From Deroplatys truncata (lineage: Eukaryota > Arthropoda > Insecta > Mantodea > Mantidae): a stretch of DNA of 64,000 nucleotides. The number at the start of each line of letters is the position of its first letter. Within the stretch, counting starts at the first letter, position 1. The notes under the pieces are model-generated. The model searched no databases and was not told the DNA's origin. It saw nothing but the letters and a program-made list of their open reading frames with translations. Location: positions 283,119,341 through 283,183,340 of the forward strand of contig CM060990.1 in the NCBI GenBank assembly GCA_030765065.1. The letters run 5' to 3'. The position numbers and the translations under genes are program-made. Shown here piece by piece: positions 5,666-54,162 of the stretch.

Positions 5666-6809
5666 ACGACTGTTCTTGGTCGACCACACTACCTTTCAAG
5701 ACTTTGAGTTTTTACAAAAGATCTTATTTTTTAAATTGTGTGCAATAAAATGCTGATCGAATGGCAGCACTGATGGCAGGACCTTGAGTATGTTTGCGAG
5801 TAGTGCAACAGATTGTAGCAATGCTGATTCTATGCCGTATTTATTGATTTTTGCAGATAAATGCAAGAAATACATATTGAAGCAAAGAAAATGAACTAAA
5901 TTTATTAGAATATTAAAATTACAGCGAACGGAATTTGTTTTATTACAAATACGGGTATTTCTTGTTTATTTGGGGAATGGATCCCAGTGGAATGTTTGAA
6001 GTTAGGACTGCTGCTTTGAAGGTGTTAAACGGTATGGGGATAAGAGAGGTGTGCGAGCCGCCGAGTAAGATCATAATGAGTCGCTGAAGTATTGTGGATG
6101 CGGTAACACTTCAGATACGACACATATAATCAGTGTATTATATTGTGGTCGACCAAAAGTTAAATTACTACCTGAAACCGTACTAGTATCATCACTAGGA
6201 AGTAAATTTTGGGTGAACTAAGTTGCCGAGCGACTGCATGCGCTAATGTTGTAATCCACTGCTTCCTCGACATAATACTGTAGCTTGGAATAGAGGGGTT
6301 TTGGAAATGATGCGGATGTACTGGTGTCTTGATGAAATCATGATGCAGCTGCTAATATATCTGAGAAGCCATGGGGCACTGGAGTATGCGCAATGCTTTA
6401 TTTTGAATGATTTGGATGCGATGAATATACATCTTGCCTGCAGTTCTCAATAAGGAACTCCGTAAACGAGTAATTGACGCAGAAAAGAAGTGTACAAATA
6501 TAGAGAACAATCAGAGCGTCCTTTTAACACTCGATACTGTTTTAACAGCCGGACTGAGGAGTGAACAAGTGATGCCTTCTACCTCGCATTGAGTGTCAAA
6601 GACAGTTCTGTCATTGCACTGATTCAGCCGCTTGTGCATCAACGTTGCGACCTGCAGAATGTGAACAACATGTCGGGTGTTCTTGTTTATGTCGGGAGTG
6701 GACAGAGCAATAGTTACTCGTTGCTGTGGCAGAATCTTTATTGTCTCTTACTGCAGCTAAATAGGGTTGCCCTATGCTAGGATTTCGGTTTGCGTATATG
6801 TCCAGGCAT
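5666..6809. other. Noncoding, nothing recognised
   Basis: No family features. A short plus-strand frame at 6589-6780 does not resemble anything known to me. Confidence 0.45.
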
Positions 6810-6996
6810 AGTTCCGGTTAGAAGTGACAAAGTGTTATTAAAGCTGTAAAGGCAGTGACTCACGAAAATTAGAATCTGAGCTCTACCAAGAAATTGTCTA
6901 TTTCCTAAACCCTACCATCCATAATCGAACCTGTGACTCCGAAGTTTCTCGATATAGCAGTAAAATAAAATACCAAGGCGACCCAGGTCAGCATCA
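6810..6996 (+). repeat. Dispersed LTR-like repeat carrying the empty target site of the palindromic element
   Basis: The stretch matches the sequences on the two outer sides of the palindromic element. Upstream of GTTATT (6834-6839) the bases TAGTTC..G.TTAG and CAAAGTGTTATT match 16380-16407. Downstream, about 150 bp (GGCAGTG, then TTAGAATCT.AGCTCT, CTATTTCCTAA, GTGACTCCGAAG.TTCTCGA) match 34836-35005. Here GTTATT occurs once; around the element it occurs twice. The final part CCAGGTCAGCA may be the LTR end and primer-binding area of the Gypsy relic that follows, but this is a guess. Confidence 0.6.
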
Positions 6997-16401: not shown

Positions 16402-16407
16402 GTTATT
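16402..16407. repeat. Left target site duplication GTTATT
   Basis: Identical to 34830-34835 directly beyond the other end of the palindromic element. Six bases is the duplication size made by Polinton integrases. Confidence 0.9.
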
Positions 16408-16438
16408 AGTAGGATATATAGGACAGACCGAGCACAGT

Positions 16439-17705
16439 TTTGCGTTTATAATGGAAAGGATAGGGAAAACGAGGGTGGATGCGGAGGAAAATGCGTTTAT
16501 ATGGGGAAGATAGGGACTACGAGGATCGAGGCTAGGTTAGATAGAGGTTGAAGGAGTGGCGATGCGCTTTATATGAGAAATACGGGGAATACGAGAAGTG
16601 TTAGACTAGGCAGAGTTTGAGAAGTGGAATAGCTGTTTATATAGGAAAGATAGGGAAAACGTGAGCAGATAATAGGCTAGACAGATGCTGAAGCAGGGGA
16701 ATACGGATACATATACAGGAGAGATAGAGGATACGTGGAGAGGTACTAGACTATTCAGGGCTTGAAGGGAAGAGTAGAGCTTTTTTATATGAAGAGACGA
16801 GGAAAACGAAGATATATGCTAGGTTGAGAGAAACTTCAAGGAGGAAAAATGCGTTTATATGGAGAAGATAGGGGAAACGAGGAGAATTCCGAGGTAGAGC
16901 AGGGACTCCAGGAGGGAGGGATATGCTTTATACGACAGAGATAGGGCATGCGAGGAGAGGTGCTAGTGTAGACAGAGGTTAAGGAGTAGGGTATACGCTT
17001 ATATGAGGAATGTATGGAAAACGGAGACAGACGGTATTATAGACAGAAGCTGTGCCACTTTTGCGTTTATGAGGGAAGGGATAGGGAAAGCGAGGGTAGA
17101 TGCGACGGTTCAAGGAGGAAAATGCGTTTATAGAGGAGAGATAGGGAATACCAGAGCTGATGTTAGGCTAGTCAGATGCTAAAGGAGGGAGGGATACGCT
17201 TTATACGAGAGAGATAGGGAATACAAGGAAAGATGCTATACTAAACAGGACTTGAAGGATAGATTATGGCGTTTTATATGAGCGATATAGCGAACCGAGG
17301 GGAGGTATTAGGATAGGAGTTTTGAATGATAGAGTAGGCGTTTATATGCGAGAGATAGGGAATACGAGGGTCGATGCTAGGCTAGACGGGGTTGAAGGAG
17401 GGAATGCGTCTTATATGAGAGAGGTAGGGGAATATGAGGAGAAGTGCTAGGCTAGACAGGAAGGTCTGAATGACAGAAAATGCGTTTATATGGAGAGATG
17501 AGGAAAACGAAGGTAGGTGCTAGGTTGAGAGATTGTTCAAGGAGGAAAATGCATTTATATGAGAGCGGTAGGGCATACGAGGAGAGGTGCTAGTCTAGAC
17601 ATGGTTTGAGGAGTAGAGTATACGTTTATATGGGAGAAATATGGAAAACGGGAGAGATACAAGGATAGACAGGGGTTGAAGGAGGAGGAATGTAGGTTTA
17701 TACGG
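16439..17705. repeat. Degenerate ~80-bp minisatellite, left tip
   Basis: About 15 diverged copies of a 70-90 bp unit built around GCGTTTATATGRGAGAGATA, GGGAATACGAGG and GGTGCTAGGCTAGACAG, then TTGAAGGAGG. The array starts about 30 bp from the tip, where ordinary Polintons have their TIR. No coding potential. Repeated in inverse at 33530-34800. Confidence 0.8.
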
Positions 17706-17924
17706 TAATATAGAGAGTAATTCGATTATAAAACTTTTCTCATCCAGCGTTACAACACTTTTATATACTTATTTTCTAAACCTTACAAACTTTATATATG
17801 TTAAACAGTAGTGCGCGAGACGGAGAGGGACAAACTGTATATCGGTTTACAGCGAAGTATACGTCCTAACCTATTGCCACCTTGTTTGCTCTGGATCTTC
17901 TCATTGTCTATTCATTCCTAACAT

Positions 17925-18140
17925 AATCACGTAACAAGACGTAACCAACAAACGTAACCACGTAACAAGACGTAACACAACGTAACATAACAGCATGACA
18001 AGACGTAACACTAAGTAACATAAGCATGTATCCTCATAACATCACGTGACATCTCGTAACCAGAAACGTCACACGACGTAACAACACGTACCAACCATGT
18101 AACCACGTAACAAAACGTAAGAACAACACGTAACCAACCC
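17925..18140. repeat. Short ACGTAAC-type tandem array, left arm
   Basis: Irregular repetition of ACGTAAC, mostly as CACGTAACAAGACGTAACA-like blocks, about 20 occurrences. Noncoding. Mirror copy at 33105-33320. Confidence 0.75.
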
Positions 18141-18592
18141 TTTGCTAAGGCAATCTAAACTAATTCATCCTTCATAACTTAGACAATAAGTACGAGAGCC
18201 TAACCTAGATTAACCCGACCAATCCCAAACGTTCCTCTCATCATCTATTCTACTCAGTCATCGACTAACCTAATCTGGCTAACCAAAGATAACCTCAACT
18301 TTCTTTTAGTGAAATTGTAATGTTTCATTCAGGGTTTCTTATTCGAGAGTTTTAATTGAAAAATTTACGTCAACCTACCCTTATTTTAGTTCGTTGTAGG
18401 TGTCTCTCCCCTTTTTATCTAGGCTTGAGACTAGCACTAGGATTGCTCCTAATGGCAGCGTTACCACCTTCCCTTCCATCTTCTTCTTCCTTCATCGCTC
18501 GTCTGCTAGCTGCATATACAGCACACGGATAACCTTCATTTTTTTAAGATTGTAGACTCACAAGAAAATCTTTATCTTTGACTTACATTCTT

Positions 18593-21500
18593 TTAAGCAC
18601 TGTTTGTAATGGCGTAATGTCCATACGCATATGTCGTTATCCCGTCCTCAGCAATAATTCTTTTATCATCAAACGGAGTCAATGCAATTTTATTCACTTG
18701 CTCTGTAGCAAGAGCATGCTCCCGAGACAGGATCAGATTAATGGGTGTTCTGATGATTTCTCCGGTTTTAAGACAGTCTGTATACCTGTCAAACGAAATG
18801 TACTGCTTAATAGCGCTTCGTTTTATACCTATAATCTTTTTAATCATTGAGCCTTGAATATCTAAGACATACATCTTAGGACGTAGTCCAACAAAGCGTA
18901 GGATGATTTTACCATTAGCCTCATCTTTAAATTTTCCCAACACCTTCTTGTTTAGAGCTGAATAGCATATATGGTTGACAGGGTAATCAGCTGTATCTAG
19001 GTGTTCGAGAAAACGTAGCTTGTCCTGGTACACATCTTCAGTTGTAACACGATGAATGAACGAATCAGTGTCCATATACATAAGCTTCAGGTTTTCAGCT
19101 CCATAATACGGTAACAACACGTCGTAATGATAGTTATACATTAATGTCTTGGAGATGTCCAACACACTCATACCGATGTATATACGCTTGTTGAATACGA
19201 TCTGACGAGAGGCCATATGTACAGCAGCTAGATTAGAAGCATATATCGTCCTGTCGATAAACGTTGGCTTTGCAATTAACTTTTCCAGAGTCTTCTCGTT
19301 TGTCACCAACCGTATATCCACACGATTACGAAGGTTCTCCATTGTTTTTCCAAACATGGCGTTGTTAAACAGTTTGTAGAGATCCTTCTCAAAATCATTT
19401 GCAGCCTGTTGTCGTAGTCTGTTATTAAATTCCACATACGGTTTTAACCACTGTGACTGTCGAAATTGTGACACACGATGAATTTTTGTTAGTCCCAGGC
19501 CATGACTAAGAGCTTGCTTCAAAGTCATGTAATGTACTACATACTTCGTTCGTGATCCAAGGTGAGGAATTAGCTTCTTCGGAGTCGAGTCCTTTGGTTT
19601 CAGACACTCAGGCAGGAATGGTAGATCATTATGCAGATCATGGAGTTCAGCAGGATACTCGATGTCAACTTCTAATATGTATCCATGAGGATCATCTTCT
19701 TCTAGTCTTTATAAGTTTATTTCTTCAGGTGAAACCCACTGAAATCGACCAAAAGGAAGGGCGTGGCTCATTGCCCACTCATATTGGTTGTTGGCGTCCT
19801 CATAGGTAATGAATTGGGTTGGCCTCGACGGATCAAACTTGTCCATGTAAGTGTTATTAGCCTCTGCATACCGATGGGACTCTTGGCATAAACCTCCTCT
19901 TATACCGGATTCCACAATGAGTAGTTGGTCATAATCCTGTAACAGTTCCAGTTCGATTCCAGTATACAGTAACATGGCGTCCCATGTAAGTCCTGGAGAG
20001 GTAAAATAATGCGCTGGATCAACTTTGTGTGTTTTGAGAGTTTGCTCTCTGAATGTCTCAAAGACATCAGCTAGAAGAAGAACATCAGATATTAAGTAGA
20101 GGTCACTGTATTCTCCCAGGTTTCTCACATTGAACAGTCTCCATACATTTCTAGCATGTTCGTAGTCAGCATCACTAATTTCTTCTTCATTCAGTTTATT
20201 GTAGAAGTAGTTCTTAGGTGGCAGGCGGGTTTCGTTCAAGACGTCCCATGAAGTGGCGTAATCATAGGGAAATACACCCTTACGTGTCATCAACTTCATC
20301 TTGTCTTCTCCGAAGTACTTCAATGTCTCAGGGTACGATGTTATATTTTTTACCAGCTTATCCAAGCTTGTACTCAGGAACCGAAAACTATCTACAAACC
20401 GGAGCTTTATATATCTGACATACTTGGAGAATGATATATAGCTTTCTTCAGAGCTAGGAATTACTTCCACCCGCTCACTTGTACATCCCAGCTCCTTAAC
20501 AATGTAGTGTGAGTCATATCCACTGAGGTTGTACATGCAGACAGGGATATATTTAGGTGTTTTGCAGGCTAAATTACATTCATTATGCAGACTTCCTCGA
20601 TATTCACCACTGAGTGATCATGGTCGCGTACTTTATAGTTCTCTTCAGTAAAGGTTTTTCCACACAAGTAGCATACTGTAGAGGCGTTGAAATCCATCTG
20701 CTGTTGATCTGTTAGTTTCAGGGGCATGTCAGATTTGTATATATTATTAATCTCCTTTGCAAGGAATGACAGGTATTCCATAAACTTCTGAGCAGCATCA
20801 GCACCACGATATACATAGGGATGCTTAGGAAGGCTAGTTTTCAGATGTTCAACGTTGGTTGATGGTTTAACGTAAACACAGACGCTCATTGCTGTAAGCT
20901 CTTGATAAGGGGTTGTATAAGAAGTTTCAGGACTGGGTATGCATGTATGACATGGAGCGAGAATGCTTTCAAAGTCTGCGTAGATGGCGTAAGGTAGTTT
21001 CAACATCCTTTCAAAATTTTTAAACTGTACAATCGATTTCTCCTTTGTAGGCATATCTACCCTTGCAACACCATGCTGATTACAGATGGATGCATGTTCT
21101 TGCGGTTTTATCCAGTCCACTTCGTCCATATCGATCGTCAAAATGTGTAAAGCACCGCTTACAGGTATATATCACTCCATCATGCTTAGTTTTCTGACGT
21201 CGAACGAGCTTCTCAAAATTCTTGATATATACATAGTGATGTTTTCCACTACTGTCACTCAATAGTAGGAGGTCACGGTGGTCAGGCAGTTCAGTGTCAG
21301 CAACCTTTATCGGATACACTTCATGCTTCTCATCCAGACCGAAAACGTTAATAGACATCCTATTAAGCTTCTAAAATTTAGGTATTTGAGAAAGTGGAGT
21401 AGGATAGGAAACGCAGCTGAAGTCGTACTTATCTTGGAATTGTTCGTATTTGCTCACCCGTTGTGCATTCTTCTAAACGAATTTGGCCAATACAGAGTAC

Positions 21501-22246
21501 ATGAAACATAGCTCATCAGTTAAATTCTGGATGTTTATTCACGCTTCTTTACTTCCAACAGAAGGCGGTAGGGGTATGTAGCTACTTCCACGTAACGGAT
21601 TGTACTTGTTAATACGAAGTCGAATTCCTTCTACAGCAAGCAGAGCCCAGTTGCTACCCTTAAGTTGTGATTCCTCCATTTCAGTAACCAACTTCTTCAT
21701 TTTCGTCTTCAGCATAGAGTCCAGGTCCGTTTCTAGGAAAACAGCTTGATTCCGTGTTTTAAATGTTTTGTCAGAGGTTTCTCCGACACTGTTAACAAAT
21801 CTACACTCAGCTAACAGATTAATTTTCACACTTTTGTGAATACCAAGCTCTTTATGCACAGCCTGGATTATCCGCTGTTTCGCCTCATGCAGGTACATAT
21901 TCAGGGCCTAAGTCGATTCACATCGTATAAAATACGATTTCAAGCGTCCATGGAATGAAGTTTCATATTCTTTCATGTCACACTCCTCCATTGTAGATAA
22001 CAACTCATGCTTTGTCGGTTCTAATCTACGTTTCTTCTCAGGTCTGCTTATTTCACACGCATCTTCGTGTCGACGACCCTTATAGCTGTCTTTGAAGGCT
22101 ACATTACAATATTTACACTTGAAGAGCATTTTACAACCTAGCTCATGTCGTCTTTTATCATATCCACGGAGGAATTTCTTACAGCATTTACCACAAGAAT
22201 ATCCTGAGGCACTAGGAATGATATCCTTATATGAGGACGTATTCAT
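18593..22246 (-). pseudogene. pPolB: Protein-primed B-family DNA polymerase, left arm copy (inactivated)
   Basis: Replicative polymerase of Polinton type; in the family it starts copies from a terminal protein. From the ATG at 22246: two C2HC fingers (CGKC...H...C and CKYC...H...C), a linker, a third finger (CKRC...HASIC on the other arm), exonuclease motif I (IYADFESIL), a CYLCGKTFTEEN finger with RDHDH, exo II (YDSHY), exo III (LGEYSDLYLISDVLLLAD), motif A (YEDANNQY), motif B (FNNAMFGKTMEN) and motif C (YMDTDS). Defects: stops at 21908-21910 (TAG), near 21539 (TGA), a TAG in the following FVxKNAQ segment, a TAG after PKF and at 19709-19711 (TAA); a 1-base insertion near 21110 and a deletion near 20610. 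Transcription runs from the loop towards the tip. Confidence 0.9.
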
Positions 22247-22405
22247 TGTTCTTCTTGATATAATAAGGTATTAACCTTTCTTCAAGGAAATGTACGCCTC
22301 TTTACCTTGATAACGCTTTAGAAGGTTGATTATTTTCTGAGAGAACAGCGATGTTAACACCTCAGAGATGATCAACAGAATGAATTTCAATGCTAGAGCT
22401 CGCTC

Positions 22406-22413
22406 TATTTATA
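22406..22413 (-). promoter_or_regulatory. TATA box upstream of left-arm polymerase
   Basis: On the minus strand CTCTATAAATAGAG, about 165 bp before the polymerase ATG; the same sequence occurs at 28848-28855 in the other arm. A likely RNA polymerase II core promoter; the start site itself is not determined. Confidence 0.55.
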
Positions 22414-22699
22414 GAGGAAGCACGAACCTTTTTAGATCAATTATATCCTGATTATTAATACTAAAAATACGTAGTAGAGAAAGTAAAAAACGGTGGTGAA
22501 GCGTGTAAGCTCTTATATTTCAATTCGTGTTACAGTGATGTTCGAGAGTCTTCGTATAGCTTTGCATGCTTAGAGTGAGTGAGCAAAGTATTGTGAAGAT
22601 GTATGTATTGTTCGGGTATAACCGTACAGATTCGGAGAGCTTGACTCGTGAAGGTGATGAACGATCAGTTGACCGAGCAAGAGGCAAGCATTCCCTCTG

Positions 22700-24020
22700 C
22701 GCAACGAAACCTAGAAGCACAAAGATGCAAATGAAAGGAAATCGTTATAGCATACACCTCTCAGGCACTCGCCTGCAGATCATGGAAAGCCACGAAAAAT
22801 ATGTCAGAGTGAGCTTCCAACGGGACTCGAACCAGGGACTCTAAAAGCACCCGTAAAAGATACAAATTATATAGAATGAAAGGAAATCGTATTCGATGAG
22901 AAACCACTCAAGCATTCGCCTACAGACCAGGGAAAACCATAAAAAATATCATGTCAGAGTGATCAACCAACAGGAATCAAACAAAGGACCTTAGAAGCAG
23001 ATAGGTTAAGATGTAAATCAAATAAAAATGCAATAAAATCGTGATAGATGGGAAACAACCCAGACATTCGCCTACAGACCGGGGAAAACCACGAAAAAAT
23101 ATGTCAGAGTGAACAACCAACGGCAATCGAACGAGGGAAACCATCAGATTGCGCTCGTGAAAGATGTAAGTCAAATAAAATGAAAGAAAATCTTGATAGA
23201 TGGGAAACCACTCAGGCATTCGTCTGCAGACCAGGGAAAACCATGAAAAATCCCAGGATAGAGTGTGCGACCGCCAGAGAAATCAAACAAAGGACTCTAG
23301 AAGCATAAAGATGCAAATGAAAGAAAATCGTGATAGACGGGAAACCACTCAGGCATTCGCCTGCAGACCAGGCAAAACCATGAAAAAATCAAAGGTCTGA
23401 GCGACTGGCGGACGGTAATCCAGACAGAGTGCCTTAGAAGCACATAGGATAAGATGTAAATCAAATAAAATGAAAGAAAAAAGAAATCGATGAGAAACCA
23501 CTCGGGCATTCGCCCACAGCCCAGGGAAATCGAGAAAAATCTGTCAGAGTAGGCGTCACCGGGAATTGAACCAGGGAGATCTTCAAATTGTACAATGAAA
23601 GATGTAAATCAAATAAAATGAAAGAAAATCGTGATAGACGGGAAACCACCCAGGCATTCGCCTGCAGACCAGGGAAAACCACGAAAAATCCCAGGATAGA
23701 GTGTGCGACCGACAGGGAAATCAAACAAAGGACTCTAGAAGCATAAAGATGTAAATGAAAGAAAATCGTGATAGATGGGAAACCACTCAGGCATTCGCCT
23801 GCAGACCAGGCAAAACCACGAAAAAATCAAAGGTCTGAGCGACTGGTGGACGGTAATCTAGACAGAGTGCCTTAGAAGCACATAGGTTAAGATGTAAATC
23901 AAATAAAATGAAAGAAAATAGAAATCGATGACAAACGACTCAGGCATTCGCACACAGGCCAGGGGAAATCGAGAAAAATCTAATGTCAGAGTGAACATCC
24001 AACGGCAGTCGAACCTCACG
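22700..24020. repeat. Tandem array of ~150-bp tRNA-related units, left arm
   Basis: About nine units, spaced 138-156 bp, each with GCATTCGCCTGCAGACCAGG and AATCGTGATAGATGGGAAACC, most also with an inverse Pol III B-box-like sequence (minus strand GGTTCGA.TCCCG). The last unit has, on the minus strand, an A-box-like GGTTCAGTCGATAACG (24042-24058) and a B-box-like GGTTCGACTGCC (24004-24017) at normal tRNA spacing. This suggests a tRNA-derived origin. The open frames that cross this array are shadows. Confidence 0.75.
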
Positions 24021-25350
24021 AACTCGAATATAAATTACAGACGTTATCGACTGAACCAGACCGTAAAAACAGGTTTGTACGATACAACCCATAATAGGAT
24101 ACAGGGCCAGATGACGTCATACCTGTAGACAGACTGTGGAGGGTCAGTCGACATGCTGAAACGCGCTTGAGCGTTCTTCAGTTAATGTTTCTTTCAATGC
24201 CTACCATATCAACACCGCAATCCATTTCACAGCAAAGTTAATTTTTATTACAATACTTTCTGTACTTATTTAATTAAATTCATGTATATACCCTATTATT
24301 TAGTGATTTTTTCAATAATTTCTTCCTCCCATCTCCATCATTCTTCAAAGAATCAGTGTACAATATGCATTGTTATACGTTTTAATTTCGTTTACTTTTA
24401 AAACCGCTGCATTTGCCTGCAATTACGAGCAATAATTTTTTTTTCAGATTTACTCCGATTTTAAGCTTGTAGAATCGAATTAGGAAATGTTTTTCTAAAT
24501 GTATTATTTTTTTTTGCTTATAGTATCAACATTTTTAAAGTTTCCATGCCCGTTATTTGTATTTAGCGTAAAGATTATCATATATCATTTTTTAAATCCG
24601 TCTTCTTAAATATAATGTATCGCAATCCATTTTTAAAATCAAATCATACATGCGTTTAATGCATATAACGGATGTCTTCATATACCCAATATGGCTGCCA
24701 TGCGCGTTAAACATTCAATATGGACGCGTCCGGGCATCTTCTTCATTGAACATACTTCCGACTCTCTCCGCTAGGTGGAGCGCATGATGCATGCTACGAG
24801 TGTGGAGAGGGAGAAACCAGATCTATTTACGCTTGCAGTGGAGACAGCGCACCAGTCGGCCTGAGAGTCTCGTTAAGGGAGGTCGTATAGTTCTCACGTG
24901 TTAATACGAGTCGTCGTATCGCGTGTTCGTTACGTATTTTTTTTTTGTTTTTACCTTTCTTAGTCATGCATTCATCCAAGAGATGTTATTTCGTCAGGAC
25001 GACAGTAGTCAAATATGCATTACAAAATAAACGTTTATTCGACGTCCTTATCTTAATTCCTTTTTGATGTTAATCCAAGATGAATTTATACTCATGTCAC
25101 GCGATTCAGCCCAAGACCAGCAGTCAACTTGTAACAGCAGACAACGACGCATCATATTCTAAAGATATAATCATCCTTTACCGCATATTGCTATCTCTTT
25201 CCCTTCAGGAGATATAAGCATTTAACGATACCAATACATTTTTTTTGCGACGCACCGCCAACTAAAGTGGTCTGTAACCGAATTAATTACCCCACAGTGG
25301 TCATATTATAGCGACTTGGAGCTTCAAAGCCGATGCCGACAACTGATAAG
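24021..25350. other. Inner noncoding part of the left arm
   Basis: AT-rich, no gene. Contains an isolated GC-richer patch with CCGCTAGGTGGAGCGC (24768-24783), which resembles a CTCF-type site. Matches the inverse of 25927-27220. Confidence 0.6.
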
Positions 25351-25926
25351 TTCCTTTCTTCTATGCAGTCGACTCCCATCCCCGCTTTTTGCTATTCCGA
25401 CACCGCCATTTACGACCAGAACAATAATGCATTTTCCTGCGTCTGTGATTTGCGGTGAAAGAATAGCACACAAAAGGAAAGGCGTAAAACACTTAGCCTT
25501 TGTGGTTTCACCCTTATAAGCTACTGGACCACGATCCCCCCTCCTCTCTGCTCTACTCCAACGCGCGCCTGAACGATGAGAACAATAGTCCATTGTTCTC
25601 CAATACCGAGGTCAGCATTAGGTCAGGCTACAAAGAGGGGGAGTAGTCACACTTCCTACGCAGGGAGCCTGACAGTAAAGCACAAAGAGAGGGCGTGCCC
25701 AGTGTACGGGATAGGATTAGAAAGGATAGGGAAGGGGAGATCGGGGTCTAGTAACTTTTAAGGGAGAGGTCACAAGGGAAGGGGTGGGGGAGGGGTAGTC
25801 ACCAACACGTGACCGGCGGCATTTGGTAAGGCCATAAAGGAAGGGGCGGGGCTAGCGGCACGAGCGACAGGACGGCATGTAAGGCCTCAAAAAGGGGGCG
25901 GGGCTTGCCGGGATAGAACTAAGAAT
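25351..25926. other. Unique loop of the palindrome
   Basis: 576 bp not repeated in inverse. It is markedly richer in G and C than the arms, especially 25690-25915, which is purine-rich with GGGGAGGGG- and GGGGCGGGGC-like runs. Two direct matches of the form AAGG..GGGGCGGGGCT (near 25840 and 25893) occur. No convincing coding frame. Confidence 0.8.
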
Positions 25927-27220
25927 CTTATCAGTTGTCGGCATCGTATTTGGCTCTGAAGGAACATAATATGACTACTGTGGGGTACTTAGTTCGATTA
26001 CAGACCACTTTAATTGGCGGTGCGTCGCAAAAAAATGTATTGTTATCGTTAAATGCTTATATCTCCTGAAGGGAAAGAGATAGCAATATGCGGTAAAGGT
26101 TGATTATATTTTTAGAATGCGATGCGTCGTTGTCTGTTGTTACAAGTTGACTGCTGGTCTTGGGCTGAATCGCGTGACATGAGTATAAATTCATCTTGGA
26201 TTAACATCAAAAAGGAATTAAGATAAGGACGTCGAATAAACGTTTATTTTGTAATGCATATTTGACTACTGTTGTCCTGACGAAATTACATCTCTTGGAT
26301 GAATGCATGACTAAGAATGGTAAAAACAAACAAAAAATTACGTAACGAACACGCGATAAGACGACGCGTATTAACATGGCTGTGAGAACTATACGACCTC
26401 CCTGAACGAGGCTCTCAGGCCGACTGGTGCGCTATCTCCACTGCAAGCGTAAATAGATCTGGTTTCTCCCTCTCCACACTCGTAGCATGCATCATGCGCT
26501 CCACCTAGCGGAGAGAGTCGGAAGTATGTTCAATGAAGAAGATGCCCGGACGCGTCCATATTGAATGTTTAACGTGCATGGCAGCCATATTGGGTATATG
26601 AAGACATCCGTTATATGCATTAAACGCATGTATGATTTGATTTTAAAAATGGATTGCGATACATTATATTTAAGAAGACGGATTTAAAAAATGATATATG
26701 ATAATCTTTACGCTAAATACAAACAACGGGCATGGAAACTTTAAAAATGTTGATACTTTAAGCTACAAAAATATAATACATTTATTAAAACATTTCCTAC
26801 TTCGATTCTACAAGCTTAAAATCGGAGCAAATCTGAAAAAAAATTATTGCTTCGTAATTGGAGGCATATGCAGCAGTTTTAAAAATAATCGAACATTAAA
26901 TCGTATAACAATGCATATTGTACACTGATTCTTTGAAAAATGATGGAGATGAGAGGAAGAAATTATTCAAAAAATCACTAAATAATAGAGTATATACATA
27001 AATTTAATTAAATAAGGACAGAAAGTATTGTAATAAAAATTAACTTTGCTATGAAATGGATTGCGGTGTTGATATGGTAGGCATTGAATGAAACATTAAC
27101 TGAAGAACGCTCAAGCGCGTTTCAGCATGTCGACTGACCCTCCACAGTCTGTCTACAGGTATGACGTCATCTGGCCCTGTATCCTATTATGGTTTGTATG
27201 GTATAAACCTGTTTTTATGG
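25927..27220. other. Inner noncoding part of the right arm
   Basis: Mirror of 24021-25350. An open frame at 26698-26928 is AT-rich and not credible as a gene. Confidence 0.6.
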
Positions 27221-28560
27221 TCTGGTTCAGTCGATAACGTCTGTAATTTGCATTCGAGGTCGTGGGGTTCGATTGCCTTTGGATGTTCACTCTGACATTA
27301 GATTTTTCTCGATTTCCCCTGGTCTGTGAGCGAATGCATGAGTGGTTTCTCATCGATTTCTATTTTCTTTCATTTTATTTGATTTACATCTTAACCTATG
27401 TGCTTCTAAGGCACTCTGTCTGGATTACCGTCCGCCAATCGCTCAGACCTTAGATTTTTTCGTGGTTTTGCCTGGTCTGCAGGCGAATGCCTGAGTGGTT
27501 TCCCATCTATCACGATTTTCTTTCATTTACATCTTTATGCTTCTAGAGTCCTTTGTTTGATTTCCCTGTCGGTCGCACACTCTATCCTGGGATTTTTCGT
27601 GGTTTTCCCTGGTCTGCAGGCGAATGCCTGGGTGGTTTCCCGTCTATCACGATTTTCTTTCATTTTATTTGATTTACATCTTTCATTATACAATTTGAAG
27701 ATCTCCCTGGTTCGAATCCCGGTCACGCCTACTCTGACAGATTTTTCTCGATTTCCCTGGGCTGTGGGCGAATGCCTGAGTGGTTTCTCGTCGATTTCTA
27801 TTTTCTTTCATTTTATATGATTTACATCTTAACCTATGTGCTTCTAAGGCACTCTGTCTGGATTACCGTCCGCCAGTCGCTCAGACCTTTGATTTTTTCA
27901 TGGTTTTGCCTGGTCTGCAGGCGAATGCCTGAGTGGTTCCCCGTCTATCACGATTTTCTTTCATTTGCATCTTTATGCTTCTAGAGTCCCTTGTTTGATT
28001 TCTCCGGCGGTCGCACAATCTATCCTGGGATTTTTCATAGTTTTCCCTGGTCTGCAGACGAATGCCTGAGTGGTTTCCCATCTATCACGATTTTCTTTCA
28101 TTTTATTTGACTTACATCTTTCACGAGCGCAATCTGATGGTTTCCCTCGTTCGATTGCCGTTGGTTGTTCACTCTGACATATTCTTTCGTGGTTTTCCCC
28201 GGTCTGTAGGCGAATGTCTGGGTTGTTTCCCATCTATCACGATTTTATTGCATTTTTATTTGATTTACATCTTAACCTATCTGCTTCTAAGGTCCTTTGT
28301 TTGATTCCTGTTGGTTGGTCACTCTGACATCATATTTTTTATGGTTTTCCCTGGTCTGTAGGCGAATGCTTGAGTGGTTTCTCATCGAATACGATTTCCT
28401 TTCATTCTATATAATTTGTATCTTTTACGGGTGCTTTTAGAGTCCCTGGTTCAAGTCCCGTTGGACGCTCACTCTGACATATTTTTCGTGGTTTTCCATG
28501 GTCTGCAGGCGAGTGCCTGAGAGGTAAATGCTATCACGATTTCCTTTCATTTGCATCGCT
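27221..28560. repeat. Tandem array of ~150-bp tRNA-related units, right arm
   Basis: Mirror of the left array. A-box-like GGTTCAGTCGATAACG at 27224-27240 and B-box-like GGGGTTCGATTGCC at 27264-27277 on the plus strand. Another B-box-like copy CTGGTTCGAATCCCGG lies near 27708, the best match to the tRNA consensus. Confidence 0.75.
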
Positions 28561-28847
28561 GTGCTTCTAGGTTTCGTTGCGCAGAGGGAATGCTTGCCTC
28601 TTGCTCGGTCAACTGATCGTTCATCACCTTCACGAGTCAAGCTCTCCGAATCTGTACGGTTATACCCGAACAATACATACATCTTCACAATACTTTGCTC
28701 ACTCACTCTAAGCATGCAAAGCTATACGAAGACTCTCGAACATCAGTATAACACGAATTGAAATATAAGAGCTTACACGCTTCACCACCGTTTTTTTTAG
28801 TATTAATAATCAGGATATAATTGATCTAAAAAGGTTCGTGCTTCCTC

Positions 28848-28855
28848 TATAAATA
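28848..28855 (+). promoter_or_regulatory. TATA box upstream of right-arm polymerase
   Basis: TATAAATA within CTCTATAAATAGAG, about 165 bp before the ATG at 29015; conserved in both arms. Confidence 0.55.
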
Positions 28856-29014
28856 GAGCGAGCTCTAGCATTGAAATTCATTCTGTTGATCATCTCTGAG
28901 GTGTTAACATCGCTGTTCTCTCAGAAAATAATCAACCTTCTAAAGCGTTATCAAGGTAAAGAGGCGTACATTTCCTTGAAGAAAGGTTAATACCTTATTA
29001 TATCAAGAAGAAAA

Positions 29015-32000
29015 ATGAATACGTCCTCATATAAGGATATCATTCCTAGTGCCTCAGGATATTCTTGTGGTAAATGCTGTAAGAAATTCCTCCGTGGATA
29101 TGATAAAAGACGACATGAGCTAGGTTGTAAAAAGCTCTTCAAGTGTAAATATTGTAATGTAGCCTTCAAAGACAGCTATAAGGGTCGTCGACACGAAGAT
29201 GCGTGTGAAATAAGCAGACCTGAGAAGAAACGTAGATTAGAACCGACAAAGCATGAGTTGTTATCTACAATGGAGGAGTGTGACATGAAAGAATATGAAA
29301 CTTCATTCCATGGACGCTTGAAATCGTATTTTATACGATGTGAATCGACTTAGGCCCTGAATATGTACCTGCATGAGACGAAACAGCGGATAATCCACGC
29401 TATGCATAAAGAGCTTGGTATTCACAAAAGTGTGAAAATTAATCTGTTAGCTGAGTGTAGATTTGTTAACAGTTTCGGAGAAACCTCTGACAAAACATTT
29501 AAAACACGGAATCAAGCTGTTTTCCTAGAAACGGATCTGGACTCTATGCTGGAGACGCAAATGAAGAAGTTGGTTACTGAAATGGAGGAATCACAACTTA
29601 AGGGTAGCAACTGGGCTCTGCTTGCTGTAAAAGGAATTCGACTTCGTATTAACAAGTACAATCCGTTACGTGGAAGTAGCTACAAACCCCTATCACCTTC
29701 TGTTGGAAGTAAAGAAGCGTGTATAAACATCCAGAATTTAACTGATGAGCCTTGTTTCATGTACTCTGTATTGGCCAAATTCGTTGAGAAGAACGCACAA
29801 CGGGTGAGCAAATACGAACAATTCCAAGATATGTACGACTTCAGCTGCGTTTCCTATCCTACTCCACTTTCTCAAATACCTAAATTTTAGAAGCTTAATA
29901 GGATGTCTATCAACGTTTTCGGTCTGGATGAGAAGCATGAAGTGTATCGGATAAAGGTTGCTGACACTGAACTGCCTGACCACCGTGACCTCCTACTATT
30001 GAGTGACAGTAGTGGAAAACATCACTATGTATAATTCAAGAATTTTGAGAAGCTCGTTCGGCGTCAGAAAACTAAGCATGATGGAGTGATATATACCTGT
30101 AAGCGGTGCTTTACACATTTTGACGATCGATATGGACGAAGTGGACTGGAAAAACTGCAAGAACATGCATCCATCTGTAATCAGCATGGTGTTGCAAGGG
30201 TAGTTATGGCTACAAAGGAGAAATCAATTGTGCAGTTTAAAAATGTGGAGAGAATGCTGAAAGTACCTTATGTCATCTATGCGGATTTTGAGAGTATTCT
30301 CACTCCATGTCATAGTGTATTCCCAGTCCTGAAACTTCCTATACAACCCCTTATCAAGAGCATACAGCAATGAGCTTCTGTGTTTACGTTAAACCATCAA
30401 CCATAGTTGAACATCTGAAAACTAGCCTTCCTAAGCATCCCTATGTATATCGTGGTGTTGATGCTGCTCAGAAGTTTATGGAATACCTGTCATTCCTTGC
30501 AAAGGAGATTAATAATATATACAAATCTGACATGCCCCTGAAACTTACAGATCAACAGCAGATGGATTTCAACGCCTCTACGGTATGCTACTTGTGTGGA
30601 AAAACCTTTACTGAAGAGAACTATAAAGTACGCGACCATAATCGCATCAGTGGTGAATATCGAGGAAGTAATTTAGCCTGCAAAACACCTAAATATATCC
30701 CTGTCTTCATGCACAACCTCAGTGTATATGACTCACACTTCATTGTTAAGGAGCTGGGATGTACAAGTGAGCGGGTGGAAGTAATTCCTAGCTCTGAAGA
30801 AAGCTATATATCATTCTCCGAGTATGTCAGATATATAAAGCTCCGGTTTGTAGATAGTTTTCGGTTCCTGAGTACAAGCTTGGATAAGCTGGTAAAAAAT
30901 CTAACATCGTACCCTGAGACATTGAAGTACTACGGAGAAGACAAGATGAAGTTGATGACACGTAAGGGTGTATTTCCCTATGATTACGCCACTTCATGGG
31001 ACGTCTTGAACGAGACCTGCCTCCTCCTAAGAACTACTTCTACAATAAACTGAATGAAGAAGAAATTAGTGATGCTGACTACAAACATGCTAGAAATGTA
31101 TGGAGACTGTTCAATGTGAGAAACCTGGGAGAATACAGTGACCTCTACTTAATATCTGAAGTTCTTCTTCTAGCTGATATCTTTGAGACATTCAGAGAGC
31201 AAACTCTCAAAACGCACAAAGTTGATCCAGCACATTATTTTACCTCTCCAGGACTTACATGGGACGCCATGTTACTGTATACCGGAATCGAACTGGAACT
31301 GTTACAGGATTATGACCAACTACTCATGGTGGAATCCGGCATAAGAGGAGGTTTATGCCAAGAGTCCCATCGGTATGCAGAGGCTAATAACACTTACATG
31401 GACAAGTTTGATCCGTCGAGACCAACCCTATTCATTACCTATGAGGACGCCAACAACCAATATGGGTGGGCAATAAGTCACGCCCTTCCTTTTGGTGGAT
31501 TTCAGTGGGTTTCACCTAATGATATAAACTTACAAAGACTAGAAGAAGATGATCCTCATGTATACATATTAGAAGTTGACATCGAGTATCCTGCATAACT
31601 CCATGATTTGCATAATGATATACCATTCCTGCCTGAGTGTCTGAAACCAAAGGACTCGACTGCGAAGAAGCTAGATCCTCGCCTTGGATCACGAACGAAG
31701 TATGTAGTACATTACATGACTTTGAAGCAAGCTCTTAGTCATGGCCTGGGACTAACAAAAATTCATCGTGTGTCACAATTTCGACAGTCACAGTGGTTAA
31801 AACCGTATGTGGAATTTAATAACAGACTACGACAACAGGCTGCAAATGATTTTGAGAAGGATCTCTACAAACTGTTTAACAACGCCATGTTTGGAAAAAC
31901 AATGGAGAACCTTCGTAATCGTGTGGATATACGGTTGGTGACAAACGAGAAGACTCTGGAAAAGTTAATTGCAAAGCCTACGTTTATCGCCAGGACGATA

Positions 32001-32651
32001 TATGCTTCTAATCTAGCTGCTGTACATATGGCCTCTCGTCAGATCGTATTCAACAAGCGTATATACATCGGTATGAGTGTGTTGGACATCTCCAAGACAT
32101 TAATGTATAACTATCATTACGACGTGTTGTTACCGTATTATGGAGCTGAAAACCTGAAGCTTATGTATATGGACACTGATTCGTTCATTCATCGTGTTAC
32201 AACTGAAGATGTGTACCAGGACAAGCTACGTTTTCTCGAACACCTAGATACAGCTGATTACCCTGTCAACCATATATGCTATTCAGCTCTAAACAAGAAG
32301 GTGTTGGGAAAATTTAAAGATGAGGCTAATGGTAAAATCATCCTACGCTTTGTTGGACTACGTCCTAAGATGTATGTCTTAAATATTCAAGGCTCAATGA
32401 TTAAAAAGATTATAGGTATAAAACGTAGCGCTATTAAGCAGTACATTTCGTTTGACAGGTATACAGACCGTCTTAAAACCGGAGAAATCATCAGAACACC
32501 CATGAATCTGATCCTGTCTCGGGAGCATGCTCTTGCCACAGTGCAAGTGAATAAAATTGCATTGACTCCGTTTGAAGATAAAAGAATTATTGCTGAGGAC
32601 GGAATAACGACATATGCGTATGGACATTACGCCGTTACAAACAGTGCTTGA
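29015..32651 (+). pseudogene. pPolB: Protein-primed B-family DNA polymerase, right arm copy (inactivated)
   Basis: Same gene as in the left arm, with the same domain order: paired C2HC fingers, exonuclease motifs, motif A (YEDANNQYGWAMS), motif B (FNNAMFGKTMEN), motif C (YMDTDS), ending HYAVTNSA. Lesions shared with the left arm are TAG at 29351-29353 (after CEST) and TAG after PKF (29888-29890). Private lesions are TAA in the YVxFKNFEKL segment near 30030, a frame change near 30345, one near 31018 in the NET.LPP region, and TAA at 31596-31598. The left arm is open at these private sites, so the arms decayed separately after formation. Motif A keeps the family's YG, whereas the left arm has YE. 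Confidence 0.9.
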
Positions 32652-33104
32652 AAGAATGTAAGACAAAGATAAAGATTTTCTCGTGAGTCTGCAATCTTAA
32701 AAAATGAAGGTTATCCGTGTGCTGTATATGCAGCTAGCAGACGAGCGATGAAGAAAGAAGAAGATGGAAGGGAAGGTGGTAACCCTGCCATTAGGAGCAA
32801 TCCCAGTGCTAGTCTCAAGCCTAGATAAAAAGGGGAGAGACACCTACAACGAACTAAAATAAGGGTATGTTGACGTAAACTTTTCAATTAAAACTCTCGA
32901 ATAAGAAAACCTGAATGAAACATTACAATTTCATTAAAATAAAGTTGAGGTTATCTTTGGTTAGCCAGATTAGGTTAGTCGATGACTGAGTAGAATAGAT
33001 GATGCGAGGAACGTTTGGGATTGGTCGGGTTAATCTAGGCTAGGTTCTCGTACTTATTGTCTAAGTTATGAAGGATGAATTAGTTTAGATTGCCTTAGCA
33101 ATGG

Positions 33105-33320
33105 GTTGGTTACTTGTTGTTCTTACGTTTTGTTACGTGGTTACATGGTTGGTACGTGTTGTTACGTCATGTGACGTTTCTGGTTACGAGATGTCACGTG
33201 ATGTTATGAGGATACGTGCTTATGTTACTTAGTGTAACGTCTTGTCATGCTGTTATGTTACGTTGTGTTACGTCTTGTTACGTGGTTACGTTTGTTGGTT
33301 ACGTCTTGTTACGTGATTAT
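33105..33320. repeat. Short GTTACGT-type tandem array, right arm
   Basis: Mirror of 17925-18140, read here as GTTACGTCTTGTTACGTGG-like blocks. Noncoding. Confidence 0.75.
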
Positions 33321-33529
33321 GTTAGGAATGAATAGACAATGAGAAGATCCAGAGCAAACAAGGTGGCAATAGGTTAGGACGTATACTTCGCTGTAAACCG
33401 ATATACAGTTTGTCCCTCTCCGTCTCGCGCACTACTGTTTAACATATATAAAGTTTGTAAGGTTTAGAAAATAAGTATATAAAAGTGTTGTAACGCTGGA
33501 TGAGAAAAGTTTTATAATCGAATTACTCT

Positions 33530-34800
33530 CTATATTACCGTATAAACCTACATTCCTCCTCCTTCAACCCCTGTCTATCCTTGTATCTCTCCCGTTTTCC
33601 ATATTTCTCCCATATAAACGTATACTCTACTCCTCAAACCATGTCTAGACTAGCACCTCTCCTCGTATGCCCTACCGCTCTCATATAAATGCATTTTCCT
33701 CCTTGAACAATCTCTCAACCTAGCACCTACCTTCGTTTTCCTCATCTCTCCATATAAACGCATTTTCTGTCATTCAGACCTTCCTGTCTAGCCTAGCACT
33801 TCTCCTCATATTCCCCTACCTCTCTCATATAAGACGCATTCCCTCCTTCAACCCCGTCTAGCCTAGCATCGACCCTCGTATTCCCTATCTCTCGCATATA
33901 AACGCCTACTCTATCATTCAAAACTCCTATCCTAATACCTCTCCTCGGTTCGCTATATCGCTCATATAAAACGCCATAATCTATCCTTCAAGTCCTGTTT
34001 AGTATAGCATCTTTCCTTGTATTCCCTATCTCTCTCGCATAAAGCGTATCCCTCCCTCCTTTAGCATCTGACTAGCCTAGCATCAGCTCTGGTATTCCCT
34101 ATCTCTCCTCTATAAACGCATTTTCCTCCTTGAACCGTCGCATCTACCCTCGCTTTCCCTATCCTTTCCCTCATAAACGCAAAAGTGGCACAGCTTCTGT
34201 CTATAATACCGTCTGTCTCCGTTTTCCATACATTCCTCATATAAGCGTATACCCTACACCTTAACCTCTGTCTACACTAGCACCTCTCCTCGTATGCCCT
34301 ATCTCTGTCGTATAAAGCATATCCCTCCCTCCTGCTCTACCTCGGAATTCTCCTCGTTTACCCTATCTTCTCCATATAAACGCATTTTTCCTCCTTGAAG
34401 TTTCTCTCAACCTAGCATATACCTTCGTTTTCCTCGTCTCTTCATATAAAAAAGCTCTACTCTTCCCTTCAAGCCCTGTTTAGTCTAGTACCTCTCCACG
34501 TATCCTCTGTCTCTCCTGTATATGTATCCGTATTCTCCTGCTTCAGCATCTGTCTAGCCTATTATCTGTTCACGTTTTCCCTATCTTTCCTATATAAACA
34601 GCTATTCCACTTCTCAAACTCTGTCTAGTCTAACACTTCTCGTCGTATTCCCCGTATCTCTCATATAAAGCGCATCCCCACTCCTTCAACCTCTATGTAG
34701 CCTAGCATCGATCCTCGTAGTCCCTATCTTCCCCATATAAACGCATTTTCCTCCGCATCCACCCTCGTTTTCCCTATCCTTTCCCATATAAACGCAAAAA
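33530..34800. repeat. Degenerate ~80-bp minisatellite, right tip
   Basis: Mirror of 16439-17705; ends about 30 bp before the element tip. Confidence 0.8.
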
Positions 34801-34829
34801 TGTGCTTGGTCTGTCCTACATATCCTACT

Positions 34830-34835
34830 GTTATT
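34830..34835. repeat. Right target site duplication GTTATT
   Basis: Identical to 16402-16407. Confidence 0.9.
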
Positions 34836-35719: not shown

Positions 35720-36040
35720 CCACCTTCGTTTTTTGTGGTGATATTGTTCTTCATAGTTGATGAAATTCCAAAATTCCTGATTCTATCAATAGTTGAACTA
35801 TTGATCATTAGCCGAATCTGCTCAAATATGACTGCAATAGCATTATTGGTAAGCTTAGCAACAGTTGGAATTATTTTAAGGTTAGTAATAGAAGCATCTA
35901 CAATTAAAACTTCTGCCATGTAGAGTATACAAATAATCAGCTTTAGAAGATATTACAATATCATTAATTGCATCTTTATCCGATGTATTATATGGTAAGA
36001 ATACATGTTTTTTTCTCTTTACTGATCTTGTCATTAAAGC
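35720..36040 (-). pseudogene. Polinton major capsid protein fragment
   Basis: Two overlapping broken frames match the N-terminal part of the major capsid protein at 59735. One reads KHVFLPYNTSDKDAIND (the intact gene has EHIFLPYNTSALDVND) and then YLYTLHGRS. The other reads VAKLTNNAIAVIFEQIRL and STIDRIRNFGI (the intact gene has SKLTNNAITFMFDEIRL and STIDRTRNPGI). A frameshift near 35890 and loss of the rest make it a relic. Divergence is too high for it to come from the nearby full-length element, so it marks an older, separate Polinton. Confidence 0.75.
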
Positions 36041-36239
36041 ACCTGTAGTGGTTGAAAATAAGCTGCTCTTAAATTCAAGAAAAACAAAGGTTATGTGATA
36101 CGTATCTTTCAGAATCTTTGTGTGTCGCACTGTTCGCCCGTTATAGACATTTCTTTGTGTTAACCGTGACTCGTGACCTCATGATAGGGCAGTGGGTCGC
36201 AGTATATATATGGAATACCAATGACCACATTGCTTCATA

Positions 36240-44876: not shown

Positions 44877-46182
44877 TCATGTGGTATGTATCCGGTACCA
44901 TCCGAGTAATGCGAAACTGTACCCGCCAATAATTTTTATTGTGCGTGGATTTCGGAGCTCAAAGGAATGGTCGCTCAACTGCTTGATTACCTTCACAGGA
45001 TCGTGCCACTTCAAATGTAATGTGTTTCTTTCTTCATAGGGATGGTTTTTGAGCCCTGTATGAAACCATATCTCCCTCTTTCGGGTTTCACACCTTATTG
45101 TGGCTTCTTTTGTGTCGGTTCTTTGTTCCGTGCGATTTTTGATGCGCTCGTCCGCTTCTTTAAGTTTCTCTGCTTCCATGACCTCGGTGCTCCGCATGTC
45201 CGCTGTCATTCCCGCTATGACGTCACTTGGGTGCTGTCCTGTTTGCTGTAGCAGGTGTGGGAAACCTTGCTGGGACTTGGTAGTTCATTAATGGTTGTTT
45301 CCATCACTGGAATATGGCGCATCCATGAAGGCTGACTTTTATCATCCCTCGTGTATCGCTCACAGCGATTGGATGGTGGATGGTAAGCTTTCGAGTTGTA
45401 GAGTTTTATATATTCTGCCCTAATGCTGTCAGCGAAGTGTTTACCACTATAGACGAAAGCGTTATTAACTAGTAAGGCGTCCATCATTCCATAATGGTGC
45501 ATGTAGTTCCGCAGTATTCTCCTTGCGCACGCCGCACTGGTTACTCTTCGCATTCAGTATAGCTTTAAAAATTTTGTGAAGACATACACTAAAACTAAGT
45601 ATAATGCATATTTCATGCACCAGACGGTAAGAACTATGCGCATCTTCCGCAACCACAAATAACAGCTTGTTTCTGATAATATTTTGGTGTGGTATGTCAT
45701 ATTTTGCGTTTAACAGCTGGCATTTTTGGCAGATCTCGCATTTGCTTAAGCGTTGGCTTACTTTTTTATGAAATTTTGGGATGTAAAAGTGTTGCTGTAT
45801 TGCCATACATGTTCCTTTAGATCCCACATGTATAGCGGTCACGTGGAAGGTATCTATTATCATGTTCTCCAATGCGCTCGGCGCGAATGTCCGCCATGTT
45901 GGTTGTTGTGACCAGTTTATACAGGATGCCTTTGTGCACCCCTGTCGGCTCGGTGAAGTTGGGTGTTATTTCCTTCGCCTTCCTAATTAAAGCTGCTATC
46001 TTCGGGTCCTGTTGTTGTAGTGTCTGTATATCCCGAACCTCTTTAGGAGGTTTGCTACCTAGGTTCACCTCAATTCTGAGAATTGTGATCTCCCCACATG
46101 TATTTCCTATGCATTCCAAAATTCTTTCCTGTTGCTAAGCCTGGATAGTATATCTGCCAAAATTTTGCTGTTTCCTGGAATA
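44877..46182 (-). pseudogene. Ty3/Gypsy integrase region, 3' part of an interrupted element
   Basis: Minus-strand frames in order: a segment after RNase H (NSKILADILSRL and PPKEVRDIQTLQQQDPKI), the zinc-binding HHCC region (HVGSKGTCMAIQQHFYIPK, then LSKCEICQKCQ), the catalytic-core end (ARRILRNYMHHYGMMDALLV, NNAFVYSGKHF, YNSKAYHPPSN) and a C-terminal tail (LKWHDPVKVIKQLSDHSFEL). Frameshifts separate them. The sequence stops at the Polinton target duplication and its upstream part resumes at 63835, so this element was cut by the Polinton. Confidence 0.8.
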
Positions 46183-46188
46183 TGTTAG
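46183..46188. repeat. Left target site duplication TATGTT
   Basis: Identical to 63829-63834, directly outside the Polinton ends. Confidence 0.93.
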
Positions 46189-46914
46189 TAGAAATAAAAG
46201 GCGGATTCTGAGCCACAGAGAGATGCCGCCCACTGATTTACATGTGTTTTAACACATGTAAACACATGTAAACACGTGTAACCCTCTAATGACTGCCGCT
46301 AATGTCACGTCTAATGGATATGAGTGGTAATACATATGTAAACATATGTAACCCGCTAATGACCGCCCGAGATGTCGACAGGTGATAAGATATAATCGAT
46401 ATCGTTTGTTCTGTGTTGCAGCCTCCCCCGGTTCCCTTTGAGGTGTGCGGTAGGGAATTGTTTTCTCGAGGCCTGCCGCCCCTCGGCAAAATAATTAGGT
46501 AATGTTCGTCAAACATTTTTTTATGACTACTAATGCCTGCACATTGCATCCTCCAGCAATTAAGTTTTTTTTGATTAATTAATTGTATATGAATTGACTC
46601 GAGCGCTAGTGTTAGCGTGTGTATAAGTAGCGCGCTCACGGAACAGTCCGCCATGTTATGAAATAAACCCTACAACCTACTTCACGGTAATGTCCATTAG
46701 CTGACAATGTTAGACGCTTTCACCACATTAATAGACTTTTAAGAATGCATCCCGGATCTGTTTACATACATTAGCGAACAACAGCCGGACATGTAATGAA
46801 AAACCCGCAACCTACTTCTGCCTGATGGTAACTGTAACATCCATTAGCTGACAACGTTAAATGCTTTCACCACATTAGCGAACAATGTCAGTAATTGTTT
46901 TCCTAAGTGCTCTG
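46189..46914 (+). repeat. Left TIR, 726 bp
   Basis: Inverse of 63058-63828. Subterminal palindromic motifs: TTTACATGTGTT and AACACATGTAAA facing each other (46237-46262), then ACACATGTAA, ACACGTGTAACC and ACATATGTAA copies, and CTAATGACYGCC twice. The inner part holds two imperfect ~160-bp direct repeats with CATTAGCTGACAA and GCTTTCACCACATTA. It lacks about 45 bp present in the right TIR. Confidence 0.92.
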
Positions 46915-46950
46915 CACAACTCTCACCACTTCAGCTTTTAGCGGAGGAAA

Positions 46951-46960
46951 TGATATAAAA
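46951..46960 (+). promoter_or_regulatory. TATA box for the left exon cassette and polymerase
   Basis: TGATATAAAAGCAGC just inside the TIR, about 105 bp before the ATG at 47061. Position fits the promoter of the rightward transcript. Confidence 0.5.
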
Positions 46961-47060
46961 GCAGCAGCTTCTCCAATGATTTTCACAGTATCCTAAGAAC
47001 ACAGCGATCTAAGCACTCTGCAAACTTTATTCTTTCAACGTGGTAATTACATCGAACATC

Positions 47061-48767: not shown

Positions 48768-48809
<42 letters not shown>

Positions 48810-53931: not shown

Positions 53932-54162
53932 CGCCTAAACTTGTAAATATGTATATTTTGTAAATATTTGAAGATTTCTTGTTTTTTTTACTTTTTTCAT
54001 TCTGAATTTTGTATATTTCCATTTTAAATTGTGTATGAGGGTTTTTAAGTGTCTACGTTTTTTCCCTCAAAAAAAAAAGAAAAAATATGAAGAATTTTTT
54101 AAAATAAAAATACTCATGATTTTACAATCATAAAACTTTAGTCTTTATTAAGTCTTCATACA

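Follow-up and report, generated by a model that had tools for sequence, protein, structure and literature searches.

A near-palindromic Polinton derivative with two broken polymerase genes in the mantis Deroplatys truncata

Introduction

How does a Polinton, or Maverick, come to consist almost entirely of its own mirror image? The question is raised by a locus of the mantis Deroplatys truncata, where, in a 64-kb stretch of contig CM060990.1 (assembly GCA_030765065.1, positions 283,119,341 to 283,183,340; hereafter, the window), inverted repeats span positions 16408-34829, a total length of 18,422 bp. An initial annotation, made from the sequence alone, had described this element as a near-perfect palindrome of Polinton type that arrived in a single insertion with two head-to-head copies of a polymerase-bearing segment. 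Here, we follow up these claims and ask by which route such an element could have arisen. The palindrome is real, and we class the element, from the features of its sequence, as a putative non-autonomous palindromic derivative of a Polinton rather than an autonomous Polinton. As to its origin, we propose that the 18.4-kb palindrome is a snap-back (copy-back) derivative of Polinton replication that was already palindromic when it was inserted by the integrase of another element, a proposal that we regard as about evenly balanced between right and wrong.

Results

Architecture of the palindrome

A single blastn alignment pairs positions 16408-25391 with 34829-25888 over 8,997 columns at 96.4% identity. 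When aligned from end to end, the left arm (16408-25350, plus strand) and the right arm (25927-34829, minus strand, the reverse complement of the left), which an inverted-repeat search had also delimited, yield 8,636 matches, 256 mismatches and 62 gap columns in 8,954 columns, that is, an identity of about 97.1% over ungapped positions. This self-alignment to the reverse complement was the check that the initial annotation had proposed, and the arms match over their full extent; the lengths that it had given for the arms and the loop (8943, 8903 and 576 bp) are right as drawn, and comparison of the sequences bears out its AG...CT ends and GTTATT duplication.

The element ends are AGTAGGATAT...ATATCCTACT, so that both ends, read inward, give AGTAGGATAT. 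The ends AGTAG...CTACT are common to the two arms, and at either end AGTAGG...CCTACT shares 5 of 6 letters with the Maverick motif (AGT)2//(ACT)2. A search of the window for the 22-base tip, tolerating up to 3 mismatches, gives two occurrences, which are the two ends of the element (0.00 occurrences expected). The tip and the subterminal region (16408-17716, plus strand, the boundary at 17716 being approximate) consist of degenerate repeats of about 70 bp with a purine-rich strand, of which a part, 17107-17702, was called as a tandem array; a repeat search also found tandem repeats with periods of 137, 152 and 438 bp at 22729-24015 (plus strand) in the left arm.

Target site and insertion

The element is flanked by a 6-bp target-site duplication, GTTATT, at 16402-16407 and 34830-34835 (both on the plus strand), identified from the sequence and by comparison with an empty site. 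The latter is a diverged, uninterrupted paralogue of the target repeat at 6808-6993 (plus strand) with a single GTTATT, to which the joined flanks align across the junction with 152 of 202 columns identical. When the two sides of the junction are scored separately against the paralogue, the score of the left side (17) is reached by 0 of 2000 shuffles and that of the right side (42) by 0 of 500. Given that the paralogue is continuous across the junction and contains GTTATT only once, both flanks were adjacent before the insertion; their contiguity in the paralogue is also the strongest evidence against two loci having been joined in the assembly.

At the inner ends of the arms there is no tip sequence except for two 14-base matches (E 0.07). 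The 5-mers AGTAG/CTACT occur 6 times in the 1,700 bp of 24801-26500, compared to about 3.3 expected at equal base frequencies, and the pair closest to the axis (25553 and 25642) is without a flanking 6-bp duplication. As a sign against its claim, the initial annotation had named further copies with two separate insertions and duplications of their own at inner ends; in the present copy, no such duplication appears around that pair, and the lone outer duplication and the empty-site paralogue speak for the claim itself. Insertion of the element in one event is therefore supported by the sequence.

Coding content

Each arm contains one gene for a Polinton-type DNA polymerase (PolB), at 18593-21907 on the minus strand and 29354-32651 on the plus strand, as delineated from open reading frames (ORFs), tblastn searches and codon alignment, with Pfam contributing in the left arm. 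Both genes have their 5' ends toward the centre and read outward, that is, they are the two head-to-head polymerase copies of the initial annotation. Pfam DNA_pol_B_2 matches 19709-20617 (4e-13), the sole match above the cut-off among 10 pieces scanned; NCBIfam gave 0 families for 9 pieces, and a PDB sequence search with the PolB alignment gave 0 matches. In tblastn searches, the PolBs of a second Polinton in the window, at 46187-63828, and of two IMG/VR contigs (L001 and L002) align along the palindrome PolB.

Both copies are broken, mostly by private lesions (3 stops and 2 frame breaks in the left arm, 2 stops and 2 frame breaks in the right arm), and one stop within the conserved PolB region is common to the two arms. 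Therefore, either PolB was already defective when the arms last had this sequence in common, or conversion spread the stop. Another stop found in both arms (21910/29351) was dropped as a candidate shared lesion; its position is upstream of the region alignable to other PolBs, and it may mark the regular end of an ORF. Immediately upstream of PolB is a 120-aa ORF with a cysteine/histidine-rich stretch (21908-22270, minus strand, from the ORF list; the right-arm copy, at 28991-29353 on the plus strand, was also recognised by comparison of the arms), which is either the N-terminus of PolB or a separate ORF. In Pfam, the left-arm copy has no match and the right-arm copy matches only DUF7128, below the cut-off.

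Of 7,994 candidates scored against a 371-aa piece of PolB, 6,756 are related to it at E <=0.001. Among the best 120 of these 6,756, the top two are fragments on short contigs, 71% and 69% identical; the six best named relatives are from insects, including Rhodnius (62%), Halyomorpha (58%) and Nilaparvata (53%), and spiders and one mussel rank lower. In a FastTree phylogeny of 25 sequences, the two arms group together (support 1.0), then with the 71% and 69% fragments (1.0) and then with Rhodnius (0.93).

Genes for integration, packaging and capsid formation were not detected inside the palindrome, in agreement with the initial annotation. The integrase pieces of the 46187-63828 element (E 0.01) and the L001 integrase (E up to 10) have no tblastn match there; the proteins of the 46187-63828 element reveal no ATPase or capsid gene at E 0.01 or better; and the L001 and L002 proteins, including capsid-type queries, give chance-level matches only (E >=3) apart from PolB. 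These absences refer to tblastn searches with the proteins of three elements, and a very different integrase would escape them.

Divergence between the arms

The centre of the palindrome (25351-25926), studied through alignments, shuffle tests and folding, is strongly diverged and partly palindromic. The initial annotation had the length of this 576-bp loop right, but a plain loop it is not: 25497-25559 is the mirror counterpart of 25714-25778 (48 matching columns, 15 mismatched and 2 with gaps), and the axis of this pair is the axis of the inner arm near 25250-25320. None of 1000 Markov shuffles attains the local score of the pair, 44; the highest score among them is 32. The remaining loop contains no significant mirror match (the score of its outer part is reached by 130 of 500 shuffles and that of its innermost part by 36 of 500); for single-stranded DNA, the predicted fold of the centre is better than those of 100 shuffled sequences (z -4.0).

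Mismatches amount to 4.0% in the outer 400 bp (16/400), 2.7% in the arm interior and 6.0% in the inner 400 bp, and nearer the axis rise to 15.3% (inner 100 bp) and then, in the central pair, to 23.8% (15/63); the difference between the centre and the tip is significant (p about 1e-6). If the tips were identical at the time of insertion, the divergence of the centre dates from before that time and, therefore, the palindrome is probably older than its insertion.

The mismatches are also patchy. Over 44 bins of 200, the variance/mean ratio is 3.4 (chi-square 146 on 43 degrees of freedom, p 3e-13); a run of 705 bp (17302-18006) is free of any difference between the arms, and a patch of 119 bp (20938-21056) holds 21 mismatches. 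The 1,400 bp adjoining the tip (16808-18207) contain 15 mismatches, less than the 4.0% divergence of the tip itself. Judging from these patterns, copying of the arms into each other clearly happened.

In the codons of 20947-21105, around the mismatch-rich patch, which was selected after inspection of the data, 11 of 19 changes are synonymous, compared to 5.3 expected, and 11 or more occur in 3 of 1000 simulations. This mostly synonymous composition suggests that one arm took up a piece from a functional variant or relative as donor. The rest of PolB has 25 of 81 synonymous changes (19.8 expected; 111 of 1000 simulations), a pattern that fits neutral decay. For all PolB codons, the figures are 36 of 100 (24.9 expected; 7 of 1000 simulations), with a dN/dS of 0.46 between the arms, but given that the synonymous excess is confined to one patch, we refrain from inferring purifying selection for PolB in its entirety.

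Searches for relatives

Beyond the two ends of the element, the tip was not found elsewhere in the 64-kb window, and no parent was identified there. The viral_contigs collection yielded no relatives when searched with the PolB piece alone and two loci, L001 and L002, when searched with an alignment of 15 PolB sequences. L001 encodes PolB, an integrase-like ORF and an ATPase-like ORF, of which the latter two match the 46187-63828 element by tblastn, and is read as also carrying a capsid gene. In the 13.4-kb and 11.4-kb portions of L001 and L002 that were examined, there are no inverted repeats of at least 40 bp, a weak control because the contigs are longer (17.4 and 15.1 kb, respectively). In genome_contigs, 11 loci (L003-L013) filed as bacterial or archaeal metagenome-assembled genomes encode Polinton-type PolBs that are 36-54% identical; these are probably misbinned eukaryotic or viral contigs, and the 4 of the 11 that were checked have no inverted repeats. 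Full-text literature searches produced no palindromic Polinton of this kind among the matches listed, as represented by titles and the beginnings of abstracts.

Other features of the window

The second Polinton, 46187-63828, has an ordinary layout, with terminal repeats of 692 bp (99% identity), a TATGTT duplication, AGTAG ends and genes for PolB, an A32-type ATPase, a PLA2-domain protein, a double-jelly-roll capsid protein and an integrase. Its integrase matches Pfam rve at 6e-6, below the curated cut-off, and is matched by the L001 integrase at 1e-20; the best relative of its capsid protein is 78% identical (P0121). Its presence shows that the gene-bearing kind of Polinton lived in this genome, but because in-frame stops interrupt PolB and the integrase gene, this copy is not itself an intact helper. 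Its termini and the palindrome tip have no convincing similarity beyond AGTAG (two 20-base matches, E 0.04). Between its left terminal repeat and PolB lies a tandem pair of about 0.7 kb units, 93% identical (47232-47942 and 48020-48724), and a retroelement-type Integrase_H2C2 domain (45465-45965, minus strand, 6e-11) is situated a short way outside its left end.

About 0.9 kb outside the palindrome is a relic of a Polinton capsid gene (35737-36052, minus strand), 41-48% identical to the capsid of the 46187-63828 element (E 2e-17). Elsewhere, transposase-like ORFs at 1847-3491, with Pfam helix-turn-helix matches below the cut-off, extend between inverted repeats (1847-2013 and 3326-3491, 84%) and make up a probable old element of the Tc1/mariner type.

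Discussion

Our analysis places the palindrome among Polinton derivatives and, at the same time, apart from ordinary Polintons. According to the survey of vertebrate Mavericks, these have terminal inverted repeats of 46-1,447 bp, a length of 12.7-24.6 kb and the motif (AGT)2//(ACT)2 (PMC8097293). The palindrome resembles them in its 6-bp target duplication, AGTAG-type ends, Polinton-type PolB and total length, but differs in having repeats of 8.9 kb and two broken, head-to-head PolBs; moreover, the searches revealed neither an integrase gene nor one for an ATPase or a capsid in it. In other words, the ends, the duplication, the size and a PolB of the protein-primed type are those of a Polinton, and the integrase, the ATPase and capsid genes and the usual terminal-repeat length are not found. 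The ends, the duplication, the homology of PolB and the missing genes together support the Polinton-type, non-autonomous identity assigned in the initial annotation. Long repeats, and non-autonomous status of the copies in which they are longest, are also features of Galileo, a Foldback-like element of the P-element superfamily, for which the published account gives longest repeats of about 1.26 kb and no PolB (PMC3573991). We tried and rejected a transposon of the Foldback/Galileo type as an identification: repetitive tips are present in the palindrome, but such a transposon should be free of viral-type genes, and here each arm contains a PolB.

Snap-back replication has known parallels. Symmetric recombinants of adenoviruses and the hairpin forms of yeast linear killer plasmids are inverted duplications of one end of a protein-primed genome, although they are not integrated by an integrase. 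Snap-back genomes of adeno-associated virus (AAV) are described as self-complementary molecules derived from one parental end, with or without a central loop, and as helper-dependent (PMC8235507). The palindrome, too, is self-complementary, with the same end twice, as expected of a snap-back product, but is integrated with a target duplication, whereas the AAV forms are packaged molecules (PMC8235507).

Under a snap-back origin, protein-primed strand-displacement copying would have started from one end of a parental Polinton, and the new strand would have switched to copying itself, yielding a molecule in which one replication end is present at both termini. In a linear protein-primed replicon, only the ends are needed in cis. 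Such a molecule could replicate as a palindrome, with the displaced strand folding into a long hairpin, and repair of this hairpin would keep the arms alike except near the turn, so that the centre would drift. The integrase of a helper Polinton might then have acted on the tips in trans, resulting in insertion and the 6-bp duplication; dependence on a helper is suggested by the failure to detect genes for an integrase, an ATPase or a capsid inside the element. After insertion, both PolBs would have decayed, presumably with some further arm-to-arm copying in the chromosome. The length of 18.4 kb is within the Maverick range, as packaging might demand.

Several observations weigh against this scenario. 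The PolBs of the palindrome point outward, whereas in the 46187-63828 element the 5' end of PolB faces the nearer end of the element. An inward-pointing PolB module is also the rule among vertebrate Mavericks, with modules pointing apart in the cane-toad elements (PMC8097293); a parent with an outward PolB is required. A search of viral_contigs with the tip pattern gave 0 matches and, hence, no parent with this tip. AAV is single-stranded and not protein-primed. The greater divergence of the tip compared to the neighbouring sequence fits arm-to-arm conversion in the chromosome better than hairpin repair, and such conversion would account for part of the divergence pattern. Finally, the central pair is just 63 bp long and not significantly different from the last 100 bp of the arm (p 0.21), and the argument that the palindrome preceded the insertion would lose force if palindrome centres mutate faster.

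How do the alternatives fare? Instead of a one-off by-product, the two-ended, PolB-only palindrome could be the standard, inherited state of a multicopy family of non-autonomous Polintons, a possibility that we consider less likely. The centre, far more diverged than the tips, looks as if palindromes had long been copied as such, and the patch of 119 bp with its 21 mismatches, mostly synonymous (although picked post hoc), suggests a functional relative as donor; yet the tip is present in the window only at the two ends of the element and nowhere in viral_contigs, and the examined portions of the two IMG/VR relatives are free of inverted repeats of at least 40 bp. By extension, there might be a class of insect palindromic PolB-only Polintons that copy themselves and transpose by way of giant hairpins and borrow the integrase and capsids from full Polintons, with mending of the folded strand preserving the similarity of their arms and the hairpin turn left to drift; this wider suggestion is speculative, and we would not expect it to hold. 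We are more doubtful still of a sequence of events in which a normal Polinton inserted first and repair of a chromosomal break, by copying one terminal repeat, replaced the other half with a mirror copy. Retention of the outer duplication and both tips would follow naturally, as would tips somewhat more diverged than the adjoining arm in a locus where arm-to-arm copying clearly occurred. This route, however, predicts a centre at most as old as the tips, against which stand mismatch levels of 23.8% and 4.0%, respectively (a weaker objection if the centre of a palindrome mutates faster), and the searches between the tips revealed no trace of the lost half, with integrase and capsid genes.

Assembly of long palindromes is difficult, so an arm duplicated in inverted orientation, or two copies joined head to head, has to be considered; such an artefact is nevertheless unlikely, with little probability left to it by the sequence, given that 256 substitutions, several indels and private stop codons distinguish the arms, that the outer flanks are contiguous in the paralogue and share one duplication and that the centre is asymmetric. 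Hardly any credence attaches to the insertion of two separate elements of about 9 kb, adjacent and in opposite orientation, for which the presence of one PolB in each arm could be cited: the inner ends are devoid of tip sequence, the two 14-base matches aside, the 5-mers there number 6 against about 3.3 expected, and the pair nearest to the axis has no 6-bp duplication.

Replication of Polintons by protein-primed strand displacement outside the chromosome is the general view, and it seems to rest mainly on gene content. If the snap-back origin proposed here is true, an integrated snap-back palindrome would be a fossil both of Polinton replication and of integrase action in trans, and a counterpart of defective viral genomes. 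The palindrome may thus make the copying mechanism of Polintons accessible to testing.

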